Source: Clostridiaceae bacterium BRH_c20a (GTDB lineage: Bacteria; Bacillota; Peptococcia; Peptococcales; BICA1-8). Taken from it: a stretch of DNA of 64,000 nucleotides. The first letter of the stretch is position 1; each line of letters starts with the position of its first letter. Shown here one piece after another: positions 5,533 through 23,670 of the stretch. The stretch spans positions 1-64,000 of the forward strand of contig LADT01000088.1 of NCBI GenBank assembly GCA_000961765.1, in the 5' to 3' direction. The notes beneath the pieces were generated by a model, which was not told the origin of the DNA, did not search any database, and saw only the letters and a list, made by a program, of their open reading frames with translations. A program made the translations under genes and the position numbers.

Positions 5533-7398
5533 TTATGCGTTTGGTATATAATTGCTTTTCCTTATACTAACAAAAAAGTAATGGAATGCTGCAAGTGCCG
5601 CTAATGCTGCGAGGTTTAGCAATATATTTGGTATTAGCAAAGAAAATGCTATTACTATTAAAATAACTAATTCAAATGCTTTCAATCTCTTGAACCAGTA
5701 CCCATTTAGGACACCCGTTGCAACAGGTGTTGCAAACAGATACAGGATATAAATATAGACTGTTTCTAACATATTTCCCTGGGCTAACATCTGTGGAAAA
5801 TATGCAAATACAAAAGGAGCTACGTATAACATAGTTGAATATTTTAACCCAGCAATACCAGTTTTCATTGGGTCAGCATCCGCTATACTTGCCGCTGCAA
5901 AAGCTGATACACAAACAGGTGGTGTAACATTAGATAAACCTGCTGTCCAGAATGAGATAATATGAGCTACGAGGTAACTTACTCCCATACTCGTTAAAGC
6001 TGGTACAGCAACTAGTGAAACTACTATATAGGTACCTACCTGTGTAGCCCCCATACCAACTAATGTTGAAACAATGCTTATTAAAATTATCGCTATAAAT
6101 AAATTACCCTGTGAGAATGCTACTACTAAGGCCCCAAACTTAGTTCCTAGCCCTGCAAGAACAATAGCCGATAATACAAGGCCTAGTACACCTATAGTTG
6201 CTCCAACTGATAAATTATTTTTAGCGGCCGAAGCCAAAGCATCTGCAAACTTCTTAGGAGTTATCCTATTTTTAGGACTAAACCAACTTAGTGCTATTGC
6301 CAATAATATGGAATAAAAAGCTGCAAAGGGTGGGGAAAAGTGCATTAACAAAAGCACTAATATTGTAATAAGAGGTAGAAAGTAATACCATCCTTGTTTC
6401 AGAGTTTCCTTTGCAGGCGGAATATCTTCATCCGGACTAGCTTTTATGTCCATCTTCAAGGCCCGATGGTGCACAGACCAACCTACCCAGTAAAAATACA
6501 AAAGTGCTGGAACAGCGTTTATAGCTGCAACCTTAAGATAACTGGTTTCGGAGAATACAGCCAATAAAAATGCTCCCGCTCCCATAACAGGTGGAAGATA
6601 CTGTCCACCTGTAGAGGCAGCCGCTTCTATACCCCCAGCTTCTTCTGGTTTAAATCCTACCTTTTTCATCATTGGGATTGTGAATACACCTGTAGTTACA
6701 ACATTTGCAGCTGAACTTCCAGTAATTGAGCCAATCAGACCACTAGCTAAAATTGACATTTTAGCGGGTCCACCGACCCAATTTTTTGTAAGTGATTTAG
6801 CAAGTGTAATGAAAAATTCTCCACCACCTGAAACCTCTAAAACAGCCCCGAAAATTATAAAAGGTATTACATATGTAGCAAAGGTATCTGTAACAACTCC
6901 AAACATACCTTCCATAGTGCTATATGAAAATTCTATGATTCTAACGACTGAAAACCCTCTGGTTCTAAGTATTCCCGGTAGGAAAGGTCCAAAATATAGC
7001 TGTCCAAGAAAAACTGCAGATAATATTACTAGTACCCACCCCATTACCCTTTTAACTGCTGCAAGAAGTACAATTACACCAATGACACCAAATAGGGTAT
7101 CCAATATAGTGGGACTTGCAAATCGGTGAACAGCATAGGAGGGATATTGCATAATCCAATATCCAAAGGTAAGAATACTAAGTCCAATTAAGGATATATC
7201 TAAAATATTAACTTTCTTTGATTTCTTAGTACTACCATAGAGTATAAAACAAAGTATTGAGTTAAACATCAAATACATTCCTCTATGACTCTCGGTAGAA
7301 ACTAATCCAAAACCTGCTGTATAGAAATAAAATGCCCCCATTGCTACTGAAATCCAATAAAAAGCTTTAAGCCAGAATCCTTGCAGCACACGTTTCAT
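5533..7398 (-). CDS. TRAP transporter, fused 4TM/12TM permease (TAXI type)
   Basis: 621 residues, almost wholly hydrophobic. The protein fuses the small DctQ-like (four-helix) and large DctM-like (twelve-helix) subunits into one polypeptide, the form typical of TAXI-dependent TRAP systems. Recognisable segments are ILASGLIGSITGSSAANVVT (~residues 216-235) and GGQYLPPVMGAGAFL (~264-278) in the DctM part. It would use an ion gradient to import the ligand delivered by the binding protein encoded just upstream at 7491-8579. A 92-base gap with a small hairpin separates the two genes. AGAGGTG precedes the ATG. Confidence 0.92.
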   Translation of the reverse strand: MKRVLQGFWLKAFYWISVAMGAFYFYTAGFGLVSTESHRGMYLMFNSILCFILYGSTKKSKKVNILDISLIGLSILTFGYWIMQYPSYAVHRFASPTILDTLFGVIGVIVLLAAVKRVMGWVLVILSAVFLGQLYFGPFLPGILRTRGFSVVRIIEFSYSTMEGMFGVVTDTFATYVIPFIIFGAVLEVSGGGEFFITLAKSLTKNWVGGPAKMSILASGLIGSITGSSAANVVTTGVFTIPMMKKVGFKPEEAGGIEAAASTGGQYLPPVMGAGAFLLAVFSETSYLKVAAINAVPALLYFYWVGWSVHHRALKMDIKASPDEDIPPAKETLKQGWYYFLPLITILVLLLMHFSPPFAAFYSILLAIALSWFSPKNRITPKKFADALASAAKNNLSVGATIGVLGLVLSAIVLAGLGTKFGALVVAFSQGNLFIAIILISIVSTLVGMGATQVGTYIVVSLVAVPALTSMGVSYLVAHIISFWTAGLSNVTPPVCVSAFAAASIADADPMKTGIAGLKYSTMLYVAPFVFAYFPQMLAQGNMLETVYIYILYLFATPVATGVLNGYWFKRLKAFELVILIVIAFSLLIPNILLNLAALAALAAFHYFFVSIRKSNYIPNA

Positions 7399-15733: not shown

Positions 15734-16906
15734 TTATGTGCTCATCCCAATACGGTGAATAGCAAAACCAGTATTGTGTTCCAATAGAAACTCAGACTTA
15801 GTTATTTTCCCCGAAGCAACTTCTATAACCTCTTTGAGAATAATTTCCCCTGCCTCTTCAATAGTTAAATCACCCTCTAATACATCACTAACATCTAAAT
15901 CAACTGTATCTTTCATATAATCAGCCGAATAGGGGTTACCGGTAACTTTAATTGTAGGCATAATTGGGTGAGAAATTGTATGTCCACCACCTGTTGAAAA
16001 CACAAGTAGTTGTGAACCACCCGCTCCAATTCCTGTAATGGATTCAGCTCCATGACCTGGAGTAGCCATTATGTAAACCCCCGGCTTATTCGGTGGTGTT
16101 TCTGCCCAATCAACTACATCTTGAATTGGGGCACTCCCGCTTTTCTTAGCGGCACCTAATGACTTTTCTTCTATTGTCGTTAGACCACCTGTGATATTAT
16201 CTGCAGTAGGATTAGCACCTCGGATGTCTTCACCCGTATCAAGAATGCGATTCTCAAAGTCCGCTATAACCTTCCAAATTTTATCAGATACATCCTGGTT
16301 TACTGCTCGTGATGCTAACCATTCTTCTGCACCCATAAGTTCAGTTAATTCGGCCAAAATTGACCGCCCACCTTGTTTAATTATAATATCGGAACAATGA
16401 CCTAAGGCAGGATTTGAGCTCAAACCTGAAGTAGTATCAGATGTCCCACAGTTTAACCCAAATAATAATTTGGAAATAGGCACCTCATCTCTTCTTCTAA
16501 GAGTAATTTTTCTAGCTATGTCCATTGCTAACCTAATAGCCTTTGTTGTTGATTCTAAAGTCCCCCCGCTGTTACGAATATTTACTATTTCTACAGGTTT
16601 ACCAGTTTTAGCAATTTCCTCCGCTATTTCTTCTGCGGTATTACCTTCTTCCTGAAAGTGGTCGAGAACTACGACCCCACCTATATTAGGATTTTTTGCA
16701 GTCCCTACTAGGGTTTTAAAAGTAAAACGTATATCTGATTTAGTCTGCGCACGTCCTAAAGGGTGAATAATTGGAATTGCCCCGTAAACTGAATTAGCAA
16801 CCCTCTCAGCTAAACCATTAGAATAAATTGTACTCGAAAGAATTAATAGATGGTTTCTTGTTCCAACAGTACCATCAGGATTAACATATCCCCAAAACTT
16901 ATCCAT
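15734..16906 (-). CDS. UxaA-type hydrolyase, large subunit (altronate dehydratase / SuyB-like), copy 2
   Basis: About 390 residues from ATG 16906 (GGAGGTG upstream). It begins FWGYVNPDGTVGTRNHLLIL, the start of the UxaA C-terminal/SuyB domain. It contains LLFGLNCGTSDTTSGLSSNP, the conserved Cys-Gly-x-Ser-Asp metal-site segment, and GHGAESITGIGAGGSQLLVF near residue 290. Enzymes of this family eliminate water (altronate, galactarate) or sulfite ((2R)-sulfolactate) from hydroxy acids using Fe2+. The separate SAF-domain partner is encoded immediately upstream. Which acid is used cannot be decided here. Confidence 0.8.
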   Translation of the reverse strand: MDKFWGYVNPDGTVGTRNHLLILSSTIYSNGLAERVANSVYGAIPIIHPLGRAQTKSDIRFTFKTLVGTAKNPNIGGVVVLDHFQEEGNTAEEIAEEIAKTGKPVEIVNIRNSGGTLESTTKAIRLAMDIARKITLRRRDEVPISKLLFGLNCGTSDTTSGLSSNPALGHCSDIIIKQGGRSILAELTELMGAEEWLASRAVNQDVSDKIWKVIADFENRILDTGEDIRGANPTADNITGGLTTIEEKSLGAAKKSGSAPIQDVVDWAETPPNKPGVYIMATPGHGAESITGIGAGGSQLLVFSTGGGHTISHPIMPTIKVTGNPYSADYMKDTVDLDVSDVLEGDLTIEEAGEIILKEVIEVASGKITKSEFLLEHNTGFAIHRIGMST

Positions 16907-16911
16907 GAAAA

Positions 16912-17217
16912 TCACCTCCTTTTCGTTAAATCTCCACGCCCACGAGTACTTTCAACATTATGAATATGAACATGTTCACCTACTGAAATATCAGTAATAG
17001 CAATACCAATAGCGAGCCCATATTTTAAAATTTTTTCTCCTTTTAAAATAGGCTTTATTGCTACCTTATGACCATATAAAATGTTATCTTTCAATTCAAT
17101 AAATTTGGAATTATCGCCGACATTAACTTCAACAGTTGCACCTTTCTCAAGCCCCTTTTGAAGAATAGTTGCGACATTATCGCTACCGCTAACAACAAAA
17201 ATATTTTTCTTAGCCAA
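16912..17217 (-). CDS. UxaA-type hydrolyase, small SAF-domain subunit, copy 2
   Basis: 101 residues forming a single SAF domain. The conserved end VGEHVHIHNVESTRG carries the histidines that contribute to the metal site. In one-piece altronate dehydratases this domain is fused to the large domain; here it is a separate polypeptide as in SuyA. Its stop TGA lies within the Shine-Dalgarno of the large-subunit gene, so the two are translationally coupled. The C-terminus (ESTRGRGDLTKRR) is longer than in copy 1. Confidence 0.8.
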   Translation of the reverse strand: MAKKNIFVVSGSDNVATILQKGLEKGATVEVNVGDNSKFIELKDNILYGHKVAIKPILKGEKILKYGLAIGIAITDISVGEHVHIHNVESTRGRGDLTKRR

Positions 17218-17297
17218 AGGGTCATCTCCTTTCTGGTTTTTTCAACTAAAATAATATAGTTTTTAAACCACCTCCAAAAAGAACTTTCTTAAAATAA

Positions 17298-18458
17298 CTA
17301 AATAGATTCCCCAATTCTACTAACTGACATTTCAACATTTTTTAATATTTCATTTTTAGTCATTTGTCCATTTATAACAGAATTTAGTATTGCAAGTATT
17401 TGATTACGAGCCCACTCTAAATCCGAAGATCCTACCATAACTTCACTAACATCCACATCAATATCAGATTTCATAAACTTGACCGTATTTCTATTGCCAG
17501 AAACCTTAATTATAGGAACTATTGGAAACCCAATAGGATTTGAACGCCCAGTTGAAAAAAGTATTAAACTTGCTCCACCCGCCGCAATGGCAGTTAAATT
17601 TTCAACAGCAGCTGCAGGTGCATCCATTAGGAACAGCCCGTTACCTTTGGGGCTTTCACCATATGATAAAAGTCCTTCTATAATTCTAGTTCCGCCTTTT
17701 CTAATTGCACCAAGTGCCTTATCTTCTATAGTTGAAAGCCCTCCCTTAATATTATCCATAGTAGGGTTGTTTTTTAAAAAATCTAAGCCTTGTGTTTTTG
17801 CAATATTTATATATTTTTCAGTACATTTTTTAATTTCTTGAGCGACTTCTTCGCTTCTAGCTCTACGCATCAGAATATGTTCAGCACCAATCCATTCCGT
17901 AGGCTCTGACATTATTACAGTTCCTTCGTTATCAACTAACCAATCGGAAACTAGTCCTACAGCTGGATTAGAAGAAATACCTGAAGTTGCATCTGAACCA
18001 CCACATTCAACACCAAGTACTAATTCATTAAAACCAATTGGTTCCCGCTGCTGGGCAGATATTTTAAAAATAAGTTCTTGTCCAATTCTGAGCCCTTTTT
18101 CAAGGACACCGATAAATCCCCCATCTTCCTGAAGTGTAAGTATCTCTACAGGCTTACCTGATTTGGCTATACCATCGGCAATTTCCTTTGCCGAATTAGG
18201 TTCTAAGCTGATTACTAAACAAGCTCCAACATTTGGATTGCTTCCTAAGCCGACGACAGTCCTCCGATGCAAAATAAAATCTTCACCTATTTGTCCTCGT
18301 CCATATCCAGGACAAATAGCAACTGCACCATTAAGTAAAGATTCTAAACTTCTTACCACAGGATTAGAATTATCCATTACAGCAATAATACCCAAATAAT
18401 TGCGTATACCAACTTGATCGTCTGTACGCCTATACCCCATTAATACGTTATTTTTCAA
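17298..18458 (-). CDS. UxaA-type hydrolyase, large subunit, copy 1
   Basis: About 386 residues from a TTG at 18458 (GGGGG eight bases upstream); an open extension to 18506 would overlap the small-subunit gene and adds unrelated residues. Hallmarks are YRRTDDQVGIRNYLGIIAVM, LVLGVECGGSDATSGISSNP and ENLTAIAAGGASLILFSTGR. It is paralogous to the 15734-16906 product, with the same motif order but clearly diverged sequence, so the two pairs probably act on different or successive substrates. The SAF-domain partner (18475-18741) ends 16 bases upstream. Confidence 0.8.
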   Translation of the reverse strand: MKNNVLMGYRRTDDQVGIRNYLGIIAVMDNSNPVVRSLESLLNGAVAICPGYGRGQIGEDFILHRRTVVGLGSNPNVGACLVISLEPNSAKEIADGIAKSGKPVEILTLQEDGGFIGVLEKGLRIGQELIFKISAQQREPIGFNELVLGVECGGSDATSGISSNPAVGLVSDWLVDNEGTVIMSEPTEWIGAEHILMRRARSEEVAQEIKKCTEKYINIAKTQGLDFLKNNPTMDNIKGGLSTIEDKALGAIRKGGTRIIEGLLSYGESPKGNGLFLMDAPAAAVENLTAIAAGGASLILFSTGRSNPIGFPIVPIIKVSGNRNTVKFMKSDIDVDVSEVMVGSSDLEWARNQILAILNSVINGQMTKNEILKNVEMSVSRIGESI

Positions 18459-18474
18459 TTTTCTTACCCCCGGT

Positions 18475-18741
18475 TCATCTACTACAAATATTATGGATAT
18501 GTACATGACTCCCGACTTCTATATCTGTTACTGCTAAACCTATAACTTCACCATATTTTAGAATTGGTTGGCCTTTAGGTATTTTCTTTATAGCAATCTT
18601 ATGTGCCAATTCAATATTGTTTAAACTAGTAACTCTTACTTGCTCATCTAACCCCTTTATCATAATTAATTCGTCTTCTTTGACATCATCTAATACAACA
18701 GCAACATTATCATTTTTTTCTAGAAGTAGAGCCTTTTTCAC
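18475..18741 (-). CDS. UxaA-type hydrolyase, small SAF-domain subunit, copy 1
   Basis: 88 residues, one SAF domain ending EVGSHVHIHNICSR with the conserved H-x-H-x-H. The sequence ILKYGEVIGLAVTDIEVG parallels ILKYGLAIGIAITDISVG in copy 2, showing the pairs arose by duplication. It is the first enzyme gene after the GntR regulator (33-base gap) and the partner of the 17298-18458 product. Confidence 0.8.
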   Translation of the reverse strand: MKKALLLEKNDNVAVVLDDVKEDELIMIKGLDEQVRVTSLNNIELAHKIAIKKIPKGQPILKYGEVIGLAVTDIEVGSHVHIHNICSR

Positions 18742-19879: not shown

Positions 19880-21781
19880 TTAAATCCCTAATTTTTCTCT
19901 CTTTGCCATAATATGAGCTTCAATTTGTTCTGCAGCTTTTACCATATCCTGCTCAACATTAACCTTACCTCCAACTAAACCTTCTATATCTTCAGTGAGA
20001 ATTTTTGTTACAGTAGGTCCTCCTACTACAGGGGGTATAGGTCCAAGATGAGTTAATAAGCCGAAAGATAAAGCAAAGACTCCATCTGCAACAGCTTTTT
20101 GCTCTAAATACTCCGGAGCAGAAGCTGCTACCGGCAGCTGACTTGGATCTACACCTAAAGCATTAGCTATAGCTGCAACAGCCATCGTGATTCTACCAAT
20201 ATCTATACATGAACCAAAGTTTAATACTGGTGGTACTTGTAATACTTTACATACTTCTTGTAATTTAGGACCAGCATATTTAATTGCATCTAATGTTTGT
20301 AATCCCTCAATCTGTGCACCACTAGATACGCAGCCAGAAGTAATAACTAAAATATCCTTTTTCAATAATTCTTTTATTAATGTTAAAGAAGCAGAGTCAT
20401 GTCCATTGCGGTTATTCGTACATCCAACTACGGCTGTAATACCCTTAATGCTTCCACTTTTTATTACATCTAACAATGGATCTAAGCTTCCACCTAATAC
20501 TCCTAATAGGGACTCAATTCCCACACCGGCAATGATTTCTGATTTATATCTTGGAATTTGCACCGCATTTACAGTACCACGCTTTTTATAAGTTTCTATA
20601 GCCATCTCCACTAGCTCTTTTGCCTGTTCATAAACCTTCTCAGGTACATAATCTAAATTTGTATCTACACCATCCATTCTTAAAACGTGGGATACTGATA
20701 CCAGCTGAGTGTGGAACTTATCAGCGGCTAATTTTAGGCCTGGAATTGAACAGTTTAAATCCATCATAACCAAATCTACTGCTCCGGTAGCCACCATTAA
20801 TTCTTGGGTTAACCAATTCCCTAACTGTCCGGCAAAGCCTTTACCTACTGTATTCATTCTTTGTAATAACTCCTGGCCTGTATCCATAGAGCCATAAAGC
20901 TTAATACCTGTAGCCCCTGCTTCCTTAGCTAAACGGTTAAGTTCTTCATCCTCAGCGATTACATTTAAAACAGCCACTGCTACATATGGTACGTGACCAT
21001 GAGCTACAATATTGACTGTATCAGGGTCTAGTGTGCCCAAATCTGCCTCTGCTTTACCAATACCTGGGTTACCTAAAAGGATATCTTGGATAATAGTAGT
21101 ACCAATTAAACCCATATAGCCTGTAGCAATCGATAAGCGCATAGTAGTTAATAATAGACTTACAGGGTTTGTATTAATATTACTCATAGTCATGGTCATT
21201 GCATCTCTTAACTCAGATAGTGGACCACCAGGAATAATGCCTAGATCCTTCCAAATTGCAATTCTTGATTTTGGTGCAAAAGCCTCTACTAATTTAAGAG
21301 GTTCTCTTGTCTCTTTTCTTAACTCATGCAGCATGGCATCTGCTACATTGATTGCTAAAGCTTTAGTATCTTTATTGGTATCTATGCCCAGAGCAGCAGC
21401 TAACTCTTTTAGCTTTCCTTCTTCTCTAATTTCATAAGGGGTTTTTCCTAGAGCAGTTGCTCTTAAGGTATCAATAGCTTCTTCAAATTGATGACAGTAT
21501 GCAGATAATCCATGACACTCCAAACGCAATAAATTTCTAGCTACTATAGTGTCTGCACTGGCACCACAAATAGCCCTTGGTGATTTAGGGGTAATTCTAC
21601 ATGGACCATGGGAGCATAGCTGACAGCATACCCCTTCAGTACCAAATTTACATTGAGGCTGTTGATCCTCATAACGGTCAAAGGTAGTATTTATTCCTAA
21701 TTCTTGTGCCCTACTATGCATTTCCTGTATTGAAGCATGGCTTGAAGTACAAGTATTACAATCTAAATTGCATTTTGTCAT
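19880..21781 (-). CDS. cooS: CooS-family (Ni-CODH-like) protein with altered C-cluster site
   Basis: 633 residues, full CODH length. D- and B-cluster cysteines are all present: C44, C52, C53, C56, C61 and C72 (segment QPQCKFG to AICGA). Of the C-cluster ligands, H261, C344, C454, C484 and C525 are conserved, as is the lysine K562. The cysteine of the canonical CCTGNE motif is replaced: GSMDTGQE puts Asp300 there. The histidine ladder of true CODHs is also gone (Tyr, Gln, Glu and Asp at the aligned positions 95-104). An extra N-terminal C4/C8/C11 cluster is seen. The acsA product in this window keeps all these residues. It is co-encoded with a CooF-like ferredoxin and an FAD oxidoreductase. 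Family certain; CO oxidation doubtful. Confidence 0.88.
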   Translation of the reverse strand: MTKCNLDCNTCTSSHASIQEMHSRAQELGINTTFDRYEDQQPQCKFGTEGVCCQLCSHGPCRITPKSPRAICGASADTIVARNLLRLECHGLSAYCHQFEEAIDTLRATALGKTPYEIREEGKLKELAAALGIDTNKDTKALAINVADAMLHELRKETREPLKLVEAFAPKSRIAIWKDLGIIPGGPLSELRDAMTMTMSNINTNPVSLLLTTMRLSIATGYMGLIGTTIIQDILLGNPGIGKAEADLGTLDPDTVNIVAHGHVPYVAVAVLNVIAEDEELNRLAKEAGATGIKLYGSMDTGQELLQRMNTVGKGFAGQLGNWLTQELMVATGAVDLVMMDLNCSIPGLKLAADKFHTQLVSVSHVLRMDGVDTNLDYVPEKVYEQAKELVEMAIETYKKRGTVNAVQIPRYKSEIIAGVGIESLLGVLGGSLDPLLDVIKSGSIKGITAVVGCTNNRNGHDSASLTLIKELLKKDILVITSGCVSSGAQIEGLQTLDAIKYAGPKLQEVCKVLQVPPVLNFGSCIDIGRITMAVAAIANALGVDPSQLPVAASAPEYLEQKAVADGVFALSFGLLTHLGPIPPVVGGPTVTKILTEDIEGLVGGKVNVEQDMVKAAEQIEAHIMAKREKLGI

Positions 21782-21808: not shown

Positions 21809-23074
21809 CTAAAAATTTACAAGCTGTCTAGCATAGTTATATCTACTTGATAATAAGACTTCTTTAACTTTATCAGCCTTTTTATTAGAACGGATAAATC
21901 CGGCAACTACTCCTGCATTTGATATATCGCCTAAGAAAATCATCCCAACGGGGATATTATCTTTCAATACGATTTTCCGATATACACCCTGCTCTTCATT
22001 ATGATAAGTTAATATTTCATATTCATCCTCATTAGTCGGATTTACAATTCCAACTGAAATGAATGGAACTTCTCTAAATTCAGAGGTGTTTTGCATGCTT
22101 ACCTGGTTAATAAACTTTTTACTCATTCCAGCCATGTTCCAACCGGCATATTTCCCTTGAATGACTGCATTAGGCCAGATAGGGCTAAGACTCTGATTGT
22201 CTGTTACTGCATCTCTAGTTTCTGCAACATCGCCCGCGGCATAAATATCCGGTATATTGGTATTCATAAATTCACCCACAACTATTCCTCTGTTAATAGT
22301 TAGTCCGGAATCTTTAATAAGGTCGATATTCGGTTTCGTGCCAGCTGCAAAGACTACCATATCACAGTGAACCATTGAACCATCTTCTAAAATTACACCT
22401 TTTAAGTCCTTGGCTCCAAAAAACCTAAGTACTTTAGAGTTTGGGACTATTTCGTTAACACCTACTCCCAGTTCGAGATTAATGCCAGCTTTTCGCAAAC
22501 CACTTCGAATCAAAGCGGCTGCAGTATGATCAAGCTGCATGCTTAATATCCTAGATGCCTTTTCAATAACAACCACTTCTTTATTATTGTTTCTGAGAGC
22601 AAAGGCTAGCTCTAAGCCTATAAATCCTCCGCCTACAATTACAACTTTGTTTTTATTCTGCATTTCTTTAATAATTTCTTCTGCATCAGAAAGACTATTT
22701 AAGGTAAAGACCGGGGCTTTATCAATACCCTTTATCGGCGGGATAAAGGGTTTACTGCCGGTAGCAATGAGAAGCTTATCATAATGGATGCTGCTTCCAT
22801 CCTCTAAAAAAATCATCTTATTTTCAGAATTAATACCAACAACATTTGATTGATATAAGGTTTTTATATTATTGCTTGAATAAAAGCCGGGGTCTCTAAT
22901 AAATAATTGTTCTTTGGATATTCCCCCGGAAACATAGTCCGGTAACAAACAGCGGGAATAGACATCATCTTTTTCCCTGGAAATAACCAGTATATCCGAA
23001 GTTTTATCTAATTTTCTAATTTCCTGAGCAGCTGTTATTCCAGCTGCACTATTGCCAATTATGACATAATTCAT
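21809..23074 (-). CDS. FAD-dependent NAD(P)H oxidoreductase (NROR/FNOR type)
   Basis: 421 residues of the class-I pyridine nucleotide-disulfide oxidoreductase fold. The FAD site is YVIIGNSAAGITAAQEI at the N-terminus, the NAD(P) site VVIVGGGFIGLELAFAL near residue 147, and the second FAD motif IYAAGDVAETRD near 272. A C-terminal dimerisation domain follows. No redox-active CxxC is visible, as in rubredoxin/ferredoxin reductases. Gene sets cooF-FNOR-cooS are known from other anaerobes, where this enzyme is thought to link CODH-derived electrons to NAD(P)+. Here it could equally deliver electrons to the atypical CooS. There is a 27-base gap to cooS, so one operon. Confidence 0.85.
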   Translation of the reverse strand: MNYVIIGNSAAGITAAQEIRKLDKTSDILVISREKDDVYSRCLLPDYVSGGISKEQLFIRDPGFYSSNNIKTLYQSNVVGINSENKMIFLEDGSSIHYDKLLIATGSKPFIPPIKGIDKAPVFTLNSLSDAEEIIKEMQNKNKVVIVGGGFIGLELAFALRNNNKEVVVIEKASRILSMQLDHTAAALIRSGLRKAGINLELGVGVNEIVPNSKVLRFFGAKDLKGVILEDGSMVHCDMVVFAAGTKPNIDLIKDSGLTINRGIVVGEFMNTNIPDIYAAGDVAETRDAVTDNQSLSPIWPNAVIQGKYAGWNMAGMSKKFINQVSMQNTSEFREVPFISVGIVNPTNEDEYEILTYHNEEQGVYRKIVLKDNIPVGMIFLGDISNAGVVAGFIRSNKKADKVKEVLLSSRYNYARQLVNF

Positions 23075-23090: not shown

Positions 23091-23573
23091 TTAAACTAAT
23101 AGAGCAGCCATTTTCTTTTTGTGCTTAGCAAAATCATCTTCATTCATAAAAACAATAGCACCATTTGGACATGCTTCAACACAGGCAGGAGATTTTCTGT
23201 CCTTACAAAGATCACATTTTACTGCTACTTTTTGCGAACCCTTTTTTTTGGGGGTAATCACACCAAAGGGACAAGCCATTATACACATCCAGCATCCTAC
23301 ACATTTTTGTAGATTACCTTCGTTACTAACCGCTCCAGTTTCTAAGTCTTTTTGCATAGCCCCACTCATACATGCGTTTACACAAGCCGGCTCTTCGCAG
23401 TGATGACAAACAAGTGGAATAGGCCTTCCATATACTGCCTCAACGCTAATTCGGCCAGGCTCTTTTTGTGATGCGACTGAATAGAATTGTGATTCTTCAT
23501 GGGCTAAGGTACATGCAACTACACAGTTCAAACAGCCAGAACATTTATCTTCTAAGATAAATATTTTCCTCAA
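23091..23573 (-). CDS. cooF: CooF-like four-cluster ferredoxin
   Basis: About 160 residues from the TTG at 23573, which has GGAGG eight bases upstream. The frame is open to 23642, but the added residues are not family-like. Cysteine blocks are CSGCLNCVVAC, CHHCEEPACVNAC, CVGCWMCIMACP and CDLCKDRKSPACVEACP, the four-cluster layout of CooF/HycB proteins. It is the first gene of the cooF-FNOR-cooS unit and should carry electrons between the FAD enzyme and the CooS protein. The CRP/FNR-type dyad at 23655-23670 lies about 80 bases before its start. Confidence 0.88.
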   Translation of the reverse strand: MRKIFILEDKCSGCLNCVVACTLAHEESQFYSVASQKEPGRISVEAVYGRPIPLVCHHCEEPACVNACMSGAMQKDLETGAVSNEGNLQKCVGCWMCIMACPFGVITPKKKGSQKVAVKCDLCKDRKSPACVEACPNGAIVFMNEDDFAKHKKKMAALLV

Positions 23574-23654
23574 CTCCTTTCCCTCCTTTATGAATATTTT
23601 TAATTTACAAACAATTGCGTTAGTTATAGAATGCCATAACAAATTACTTTACTC

Positions 23655-23670
23655 CGTGACATAAATCACA
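23655..23670 (-). promoter_or_regulatory. CRP/FNR-family operator upstream of cooF
   Basis: The minus strand reads TGTGATTTATGTCACG, fitting the TGTGA-N6-TCACA consensus in 9 of 10 fixed positions. A TATAAC (23623-23628) would place a start site about 45 bases from its centre, near the class-II activator position. The regulator (CooA-, HcpR- or CRP-like) is not encoded in the window. Confidence 0.5.

Follow-up and report, generated by a model that had tools for sequence, protein, structure and literature searches.

A CODH-like protein of clade D with aspartate at a C-cluster cysteine position in Clostridiaceae bacterium BRH_c20a: active-site residues, operon and an operator in common with hcp

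CooS-V (CODH-V) of Carboxydothermus hydrogenoformans (7B7Q; group D-1 of Inoue) is a Ni-free protein on the scaffold of the carbon monoxide dehydrogenases (CODHs). It holds an Fe/S/O hybrid cluster, shows no CO activity and reduces hydroxylamine slowly (kcat 0.13 s-1, kcat/KM 20 M-1 s-1), reduction of NO not having been detected above background. In the C295A and C295E variants of CODH-II, Ni and CO oxidation are reported to be lost, and a slight activity as hydroxylamine reductase to appear (PMC9311411; for C295E also PMC6344411). The native role of the clade D CODH-like proteins has been stated to be unknown (PMC13056359, 2026), and genome surveys have either counted these proteins as CODHs or dropped them.

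The window analysed here, a stretch of 64,000 nucleotides of contig LADT01000088.1, contains a clade D gene of this kind, in which the first C-cluster cysteine is replaced by aspartate. The features discussed below are the following; codon coordinates were obtained by ORF arithmetic, and the operator is predicted from sequence.

19880..21781, minus strand: cooS-like gene for a 633-aa protein with an Asp-type active site; D-3 branch of clade D
20102..20104, minus strand: codon of Glu560 (LEQKA), equivalent to CooS-V Glu556 and to the HCP glutamate ligand
20882..20884, minus strand: codon of Asp300 (GSMDTGQE), equivalent to CODH-II Cys295 and CooS-V Glu295
20984..20986, minus strand: codon of Tyr266, a position with an aromatic residue in every acid-type clade D protein and in hardly any of the Cys type
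20993..20995, minus strand: codon of His263, cluster histidine ligand, equivalent to CooS-V His259
21809..23074, minus strand: FNOR, an FAD/NAD(P)H oxidoreductase of 421 aa with Pyr_redox_2 and Rubredoxin_C domains, second gene of the putative operon
23091..23573, minus strand: CooF-like multi-4Fe-4S ferredoxin (fdx), first gene of the putative operon
23655..23670, minus strand: CRP/HcpR-type operator TGTGATTTATGTCACG, 81 bp upstream of the fdx start

Active-site residues and operon

The reading frame of the cooS-like gene is intact and begins with ATG. Family profile scores make its product a member of the prismane/CODH family (762.6 bits with TIGR01702, CO_DH_cata, cutoff 478; 502.5 bits with PF03063), and the HCP family cutoff is not reached (45.1 bits with TIGR01703, cutoff 360.8). 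The closest solved structure by sequence is CooS-V (E 5e-165, about 43% identity by BLAST), which is also the best match in fold, the predicted model of the protein (pLDDT 90) comparing with it at TM 0.96 and rmsd 1.6. Residues 1-10 of the model form a disordered tail (pLDDT < 50); Cys4, Cys8 and Cys11, an N-terminal motif already pointed out in an earlier note made from the sequence alone, are present in the alignment and lie inside or beside this tail.

Residues were assigned by aligning the protein with CooS-V (7b7q) and about 90 relatives. The alignment confirms the main claim of the earlier note, that Asp300 replaces the first C-cluster cysteine, and likewise the presence of Lys562 and of all the cysteines of the B-cluster (C53, C56, C61, C72) and D-cluster (C44, C52). 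Among the remaining C-cluster ligands that had been named, C344, C454, C484 and C525 stand, but His261 must be replaced by His263, the second histidine of an HGH motif, which aligns with the CooS-V ligand. Glu560, which was missing from that residue list, aligns with a hybrid-cluster ligand of CooS-V. When the protein is compared with the set of a catalytic Ni,Fe-CODH, i.e. five C-cluster cysteines and a histidine, Asp300 stands for Cys1, while the other four cysteines and His263 are present; of the acid-base pair His93/Lys563, the histidine is replaced by Tyr95 and the lysine is present as Lys562. The D-cluster is of type II (C44-x7-C52), with Gly47 at the position of CooS-V Cys41.

The note had also regarded the lack of a histidine proton ladder as a mark of this protein. 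The residues it gave (Tyr95, Gln98, Glu101 and Asp104) are indeed those found; however, because tyrosine occupies the first ladder position in most of clade D, the missing ladder is not special to the protein, with the exception of Gln98. This residue is specific to its Asp subclade and to one further Asp-type protein (L024); the remaining D-3 and D-1 proteins of the comparison keep histidine there.

The protein thus shares with CooS-V the fold, an acid in place of the first C-cluster cysteine, equivalents of His259, Cys338, Cys449, Cys480, Cys521, Glu556 and Lys558, a tyrosine for the acid-base histidine, and an aromatic residue 266, whereas it differs in having Asp rather than Glu, and a type II D-cluster with an N-terminal cysteine motif rather than a type III D-cluster. 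The judgement that a standard NiFe4S4 cluster is unlikely holds, as the nearest solved structure is Ni-free and its other hybrid-cluster ligands are shared. With Hcp of classes I-III, whose partner is Hcr, the protein has in common the kind of ligand set (His, an acid, Cys ligands and Glu at the EQK motif) and, as proposed below, a reductase function fed by NAD(P)H, but it has a CODH-type architecture with D-cluster cysteines, scores far below the HCP cutoffs, and is encoded with FNOR and a CooF-like ferredoxin. The C295D and C295E variants of CODH-II also combine the CODH scaffold with an acid at the equivalent ligand position; they are, however, laboratory mutants of a clade F enzyme without the EQK-motif glutamate, while here the acid is natural and occurs together with an aromatic residue 266.

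The gene belongs to a putative operon fdx-FNOR-cooS, with inter-ORF gaps of 16 and 27 bp. For the ferredoxin, the likely start is the TTG at 23573, behind AAAGGAG, rather than position 23642, which was assigned mechanically. The pairing with a CooF-like ferredoxin and an NAD(P)H enzyme, which had been noticed before, is real and largely conserved: the two partners adjoin cooS in most of the 25 relatives examined, although they are absent at L024, L028 and several others. The gene order is cooS-fdx-FNOR in most relatives, as opposed to fdx-FNOR-cooS in this genome. The Asp-type genes of L006, L007, L008 and L028 have genes of Crp/Fnr-type regulators as immediate neighbours. Elsewhere in the window (15734-18741), inspection by eye showed two tandem pairs, each of a gene for a ~400-aa enzyme and a gene for a ~90-100-aa partner, which adjoin an apparent tripartite transporter; this is perhaps a sugar-acid catabolic locus.

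Placement, origins of the aspartate and the coupled residue 266

An alignment and tree of the CODH clades had been suggested in the earlier note as a check. In the trees, the protein groups with proteins matching group D-3 (Inoue et al. 2019), apart from the Glu-type D-1/CooS-V proteins. It has the type II D-cluster, the N-terminal three-cysteine motif, the Tyr/Lys pair and the FNOR and CooF neighbours of D-3, whose members are about 53-68% identical to it. In contrast, Cys300 (24 of 24 Cys-type D-3 rows compared), nearly always Leu266, and His98 are found in that group where the present protein has Asp, Tyr and Gln; the D-3 protein of Carboxydocella thermautotrophica is an example of the Cys type. 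A Chloroflexi MAG carries a D-3 gene with a stop near 6889 (L027:6001-7392), possibly a pseudogene or an assembly error.

Only six sequences with Asp at position 300 were found: the present one, three that are 76-79% identical to it (L006-L008), one from an Actinomycetota MAG (L028, 60%) and one from a Bacillota MAG (L024, 55%). Because the aspartate occurs in five other genomes with the remaining active-site set conserved, chance or a sequencing error does not account for it. A decaying gene or sequencing artefact was likewise rejected, considering the intact frame and the retention of Asp at 76-79% identity. A search of about 945 genomes (the classes of L006 and L024 and the phyla of L028 and L021) yielded no further Asp-type protein and a few extra Cys-type D-3 proteins. 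The main texts of three CODH surveys say nothing of Asp in the place of the first C-cluster cysteine.

Three changes to Asp were needed in 200 of 200 bootstrap trees, but a single Asp clade was not rejected by the AU test (p 0.27), and when L024 was joined to the clade of the present protein (p 0.55) the likelihood was slightly higher with the two held together. Asp therefore appears to have arisen one to three times and, in the best tree, which has four acid changes in total (Asp and Glu), separately from Glu.

All clade D positions were scanned for the separation of acid-type from Cys-type sequences. After position 300 itself, the best separator was position 266, three residues past the histidine ligand, which is aromatic in 36 of 36 acid-type sequences (Glu-type, 14 Phe and 16 Trp; Asp-type, four Tyr, one Phe and one Trp) and in one of 66 Cys-type sequences, a count that includes eight duplicate records. 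A joint change at the two positions is seen in each of the three independent pairs with good support, such as L028 (Asp, Phe) and its sister L021 (Cys, Leu); it should be noted that, with only three or four independent pairs, a sign test of this coupling cannot reach significance. The main text of the CooS-V paper was found to say nothing of an aromatic residue. The one exception among the Cys-type sequences, with the aromatic Phe at 266, is the D-3 protein of L023, and in that locus (L023:5221-8589) a class III hcp lies directly upstream of the D-3 gene on the same strand.

An operator in common with hcp

The operator before fdx deviates by one mismatch from TGTGA-N6-TCACA and fits the HcpR consensus (wTGTGAnnnnnnTCACAw) and not the CooA-type operator TGTCGGCnnGCCGACA. 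Its core TGTGATTTATGTCAC, the first 15 bases of TGTGATTTATGTCACG, has exactly two copies in the 4.51-Mb genome, one before the fdx-FNOR-cooS operon and one about 62 bp before a class III hcp on contig C76, the chance expectation for the shared 15-bp core being about 0.02 per genome. This hcp is followed by a gene for a FrdX-like ferredoxin; together with a divergently encoded small NIR_SIR/4Fe-4S protein, the locus (L120:7177-10282) has the look of a typical hcp-frdX neighbourhood. To the extent covered by the literature searched, no description of a regulatory link between the D-3 operon and hcp was found.

Similar sites occur in relatives. When upstream regions delimited by approximate gene starts were scanned, CRP-type sites with no more than one mismatch were present before 18 of 28 D-3 operons (0.27 expected) and before 10 of the 16 hcp genes of D-3 genomes (0.22 expected), as against two of 22 genes of the CooS-V type; in the set examined, D-1 genes are thus mostly without the operator that the present operon has. 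Since this operon and operator are also found with D-3 proteins of the Cys type, the regulatory argument covers the whole D-3 branch, and for the same reason the operator alone does not explain the change to Asp. No such operator was found before hcp in the three closest Asp genomes (G428-G430), one of whose hcp loci has an HcpR2-type GTAAC site instead. No match to hcp was obtained from G431 and G432, to which L024 and L028 belong; either the Asp-type protein could stand in for hcp there, or these MAGs could be incomplete.

Perfect TGTGA-N6-TCACA palindromes number only three in the genome (contigs C8, C46 and C71), about 50-60 bp from genes of an HPP-family protein, a hemerythrin-domain protein and a PilJ-MCP protein, which may complete a small stress regulon. 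A further one-mismatch operator, on contig C14, was set aside as a chance match because it lies inside a short ORF. A transcriptome of Desulfovibrio desulfuricans lists an effect of NO on cooS, hcpR1 and an HPP gene, among others, the values for cooS and the HPP gene being positive.

Among the genome's four Crp/Fnr proteins that score above cutoff, an R-E-T-x-x-R recognition helix of the CRP type is confined to that of contig C54 (L143); judging from its sequence, this protein is likely to be the regulator of the operon. The Crp/Fnr proteins adjacent to the Asp-type genes matched no NCBIfam subfamily above cutoff, and those of L006-L008 have N-terminal cysteines. The TGTGA-N6-TCACA site is common to several Crp/Fnr regulators, including CRP/Fnr types that do not sense NO.

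Proposed function

Taken together, two features of the Ni-free relative that are kept here and the operator in common with hcp favour a reductase acting on nitrogen oxides or comparable small molecules over a CO enzyme. The specific proposal, which we hold to be probable although with some reserve, is that of a reductase of small N/O oxidants with a Ni-free hybrid-type cluster, supplied from NAD(P)H by way of FNOR and ferredoxin and regulated together with hcp in an HcpR-like manner. A homodimer of CODH fold would hold, by means of Asp300, Glu560, His263 and the four remaining cysteines, an Fe/S/O cluster of the hybrid type in place of the NiFe4S4 C-cluster. Electrons would pass from NAD(P)H to FNOR, the CooF-like ferredoxin, the D- and B-clusters and finally the active site, there to reduce a small oxidant containing N or O. 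The operon would be switched on together with the class III hcp by a Crp/Fnr-family (HcpR-like) regulator. From the work on CooS-V and on the C295A/E variants, we infer that Ni is not bound, that the cluster is of the Fe/S/O kind and that a small oxidant is reduced at the expense of NAD(P)H.

Because of the link to hcp, NO or hydroxylamine would be the most likely oxidants, and the idea of the earlier note that a small nitrogen-oxygen species might be the substrate of such a reductase gains support from the control site. However, as CooS-V is a poor hydroxylamine reductase and does not reduce NO above background, the true substrate may be another. It also counts against the proposal that Asp is shorter than Glu, so that the same iron may be out of reach.

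It is conceivable, but improbable, that the protein is still a Ni,Fe-CODH in which Asp300 ligates the unique iron in place of Cys, and that the CooF-FNOR operon takes electrons from CO to NAD(P)+. The CODH scaffold with Lys562 and four C-cluster cysteines is kept, and CooF/FNOR gene clusters with other CODHs have been proposed to serve CO oxidation; moreover, Geobacter sulfurreducens is reported to grow on CO, and a crystal structure of CODH-II C295D exists (7zx3). Against this, the C295A/E variants were reported to be Ni-deficient and CO-inactive, tyrosine takes the place of the acid-base histidine, Glu560 and the aromatic residue 266 are as in CooS-V, and the operator is of the hcp rather than the CooA type. 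Equally improbable, in our opinion, is a low-turnover redox-sensing or regulatory protein that is not an enzyme: such a role has been proposed for clades C and D (PMC13056359) and would suit the very slow turnover of CooS-V with hydroxylamine, but the co-encoded ferredoxin and NAD(P)H reductase speak for a sustained supply of electrons. More doubtful still is the reading in which the operator belongs to a general Fnr-like anaerobic or redox regulator and says nothing about nitrogen oxides, the substrate being something else. A Crp2 protein that is the orthologue of B. subtilis Fnr can be responsible for CRP-like sites in front of hcp, and the regulators of L006-L008 would suit such a reading with their N-terminal cysteines and lack of a subfamily match, but the presence of only three perfect palindromes in the genome suggests a small dedicated regulon.

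If the preferred reading, a reductase with a hybrid-type cluster, is extended to the relatives, the CODH scaffold would have given rise to hybrid-cluster reductases more than once, with the Asp type arising inside the FNOR-linked D-3 branch independently of the Glu-type CooS-V, and the whole of D-3, Cys- and Asp-type alike, would belong to nitrosative-stress defence and the hcp regulon and not to CO metabolism; this wider view is put forward tentatively, as something slightly short of an even chance. The operator in common with hcp offers a regulatory lead on the clade D CODH-like proteins, and an acid at 300 together with an aromatic residue at 266 provides a sequence test for recognising CODH look-alikes in which CO oxidation is improbable. 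Cys, Asp and Glu at this position form a natural series for studying how NiFe and Fe/S/O clusters are built. The genome studied here carries acsA and both kinds of acid-type look-alike, the second being a Glu-type CooS-V homologue on contig C85 (L003) with the motif GCIETGQE and a type III D-cluster.
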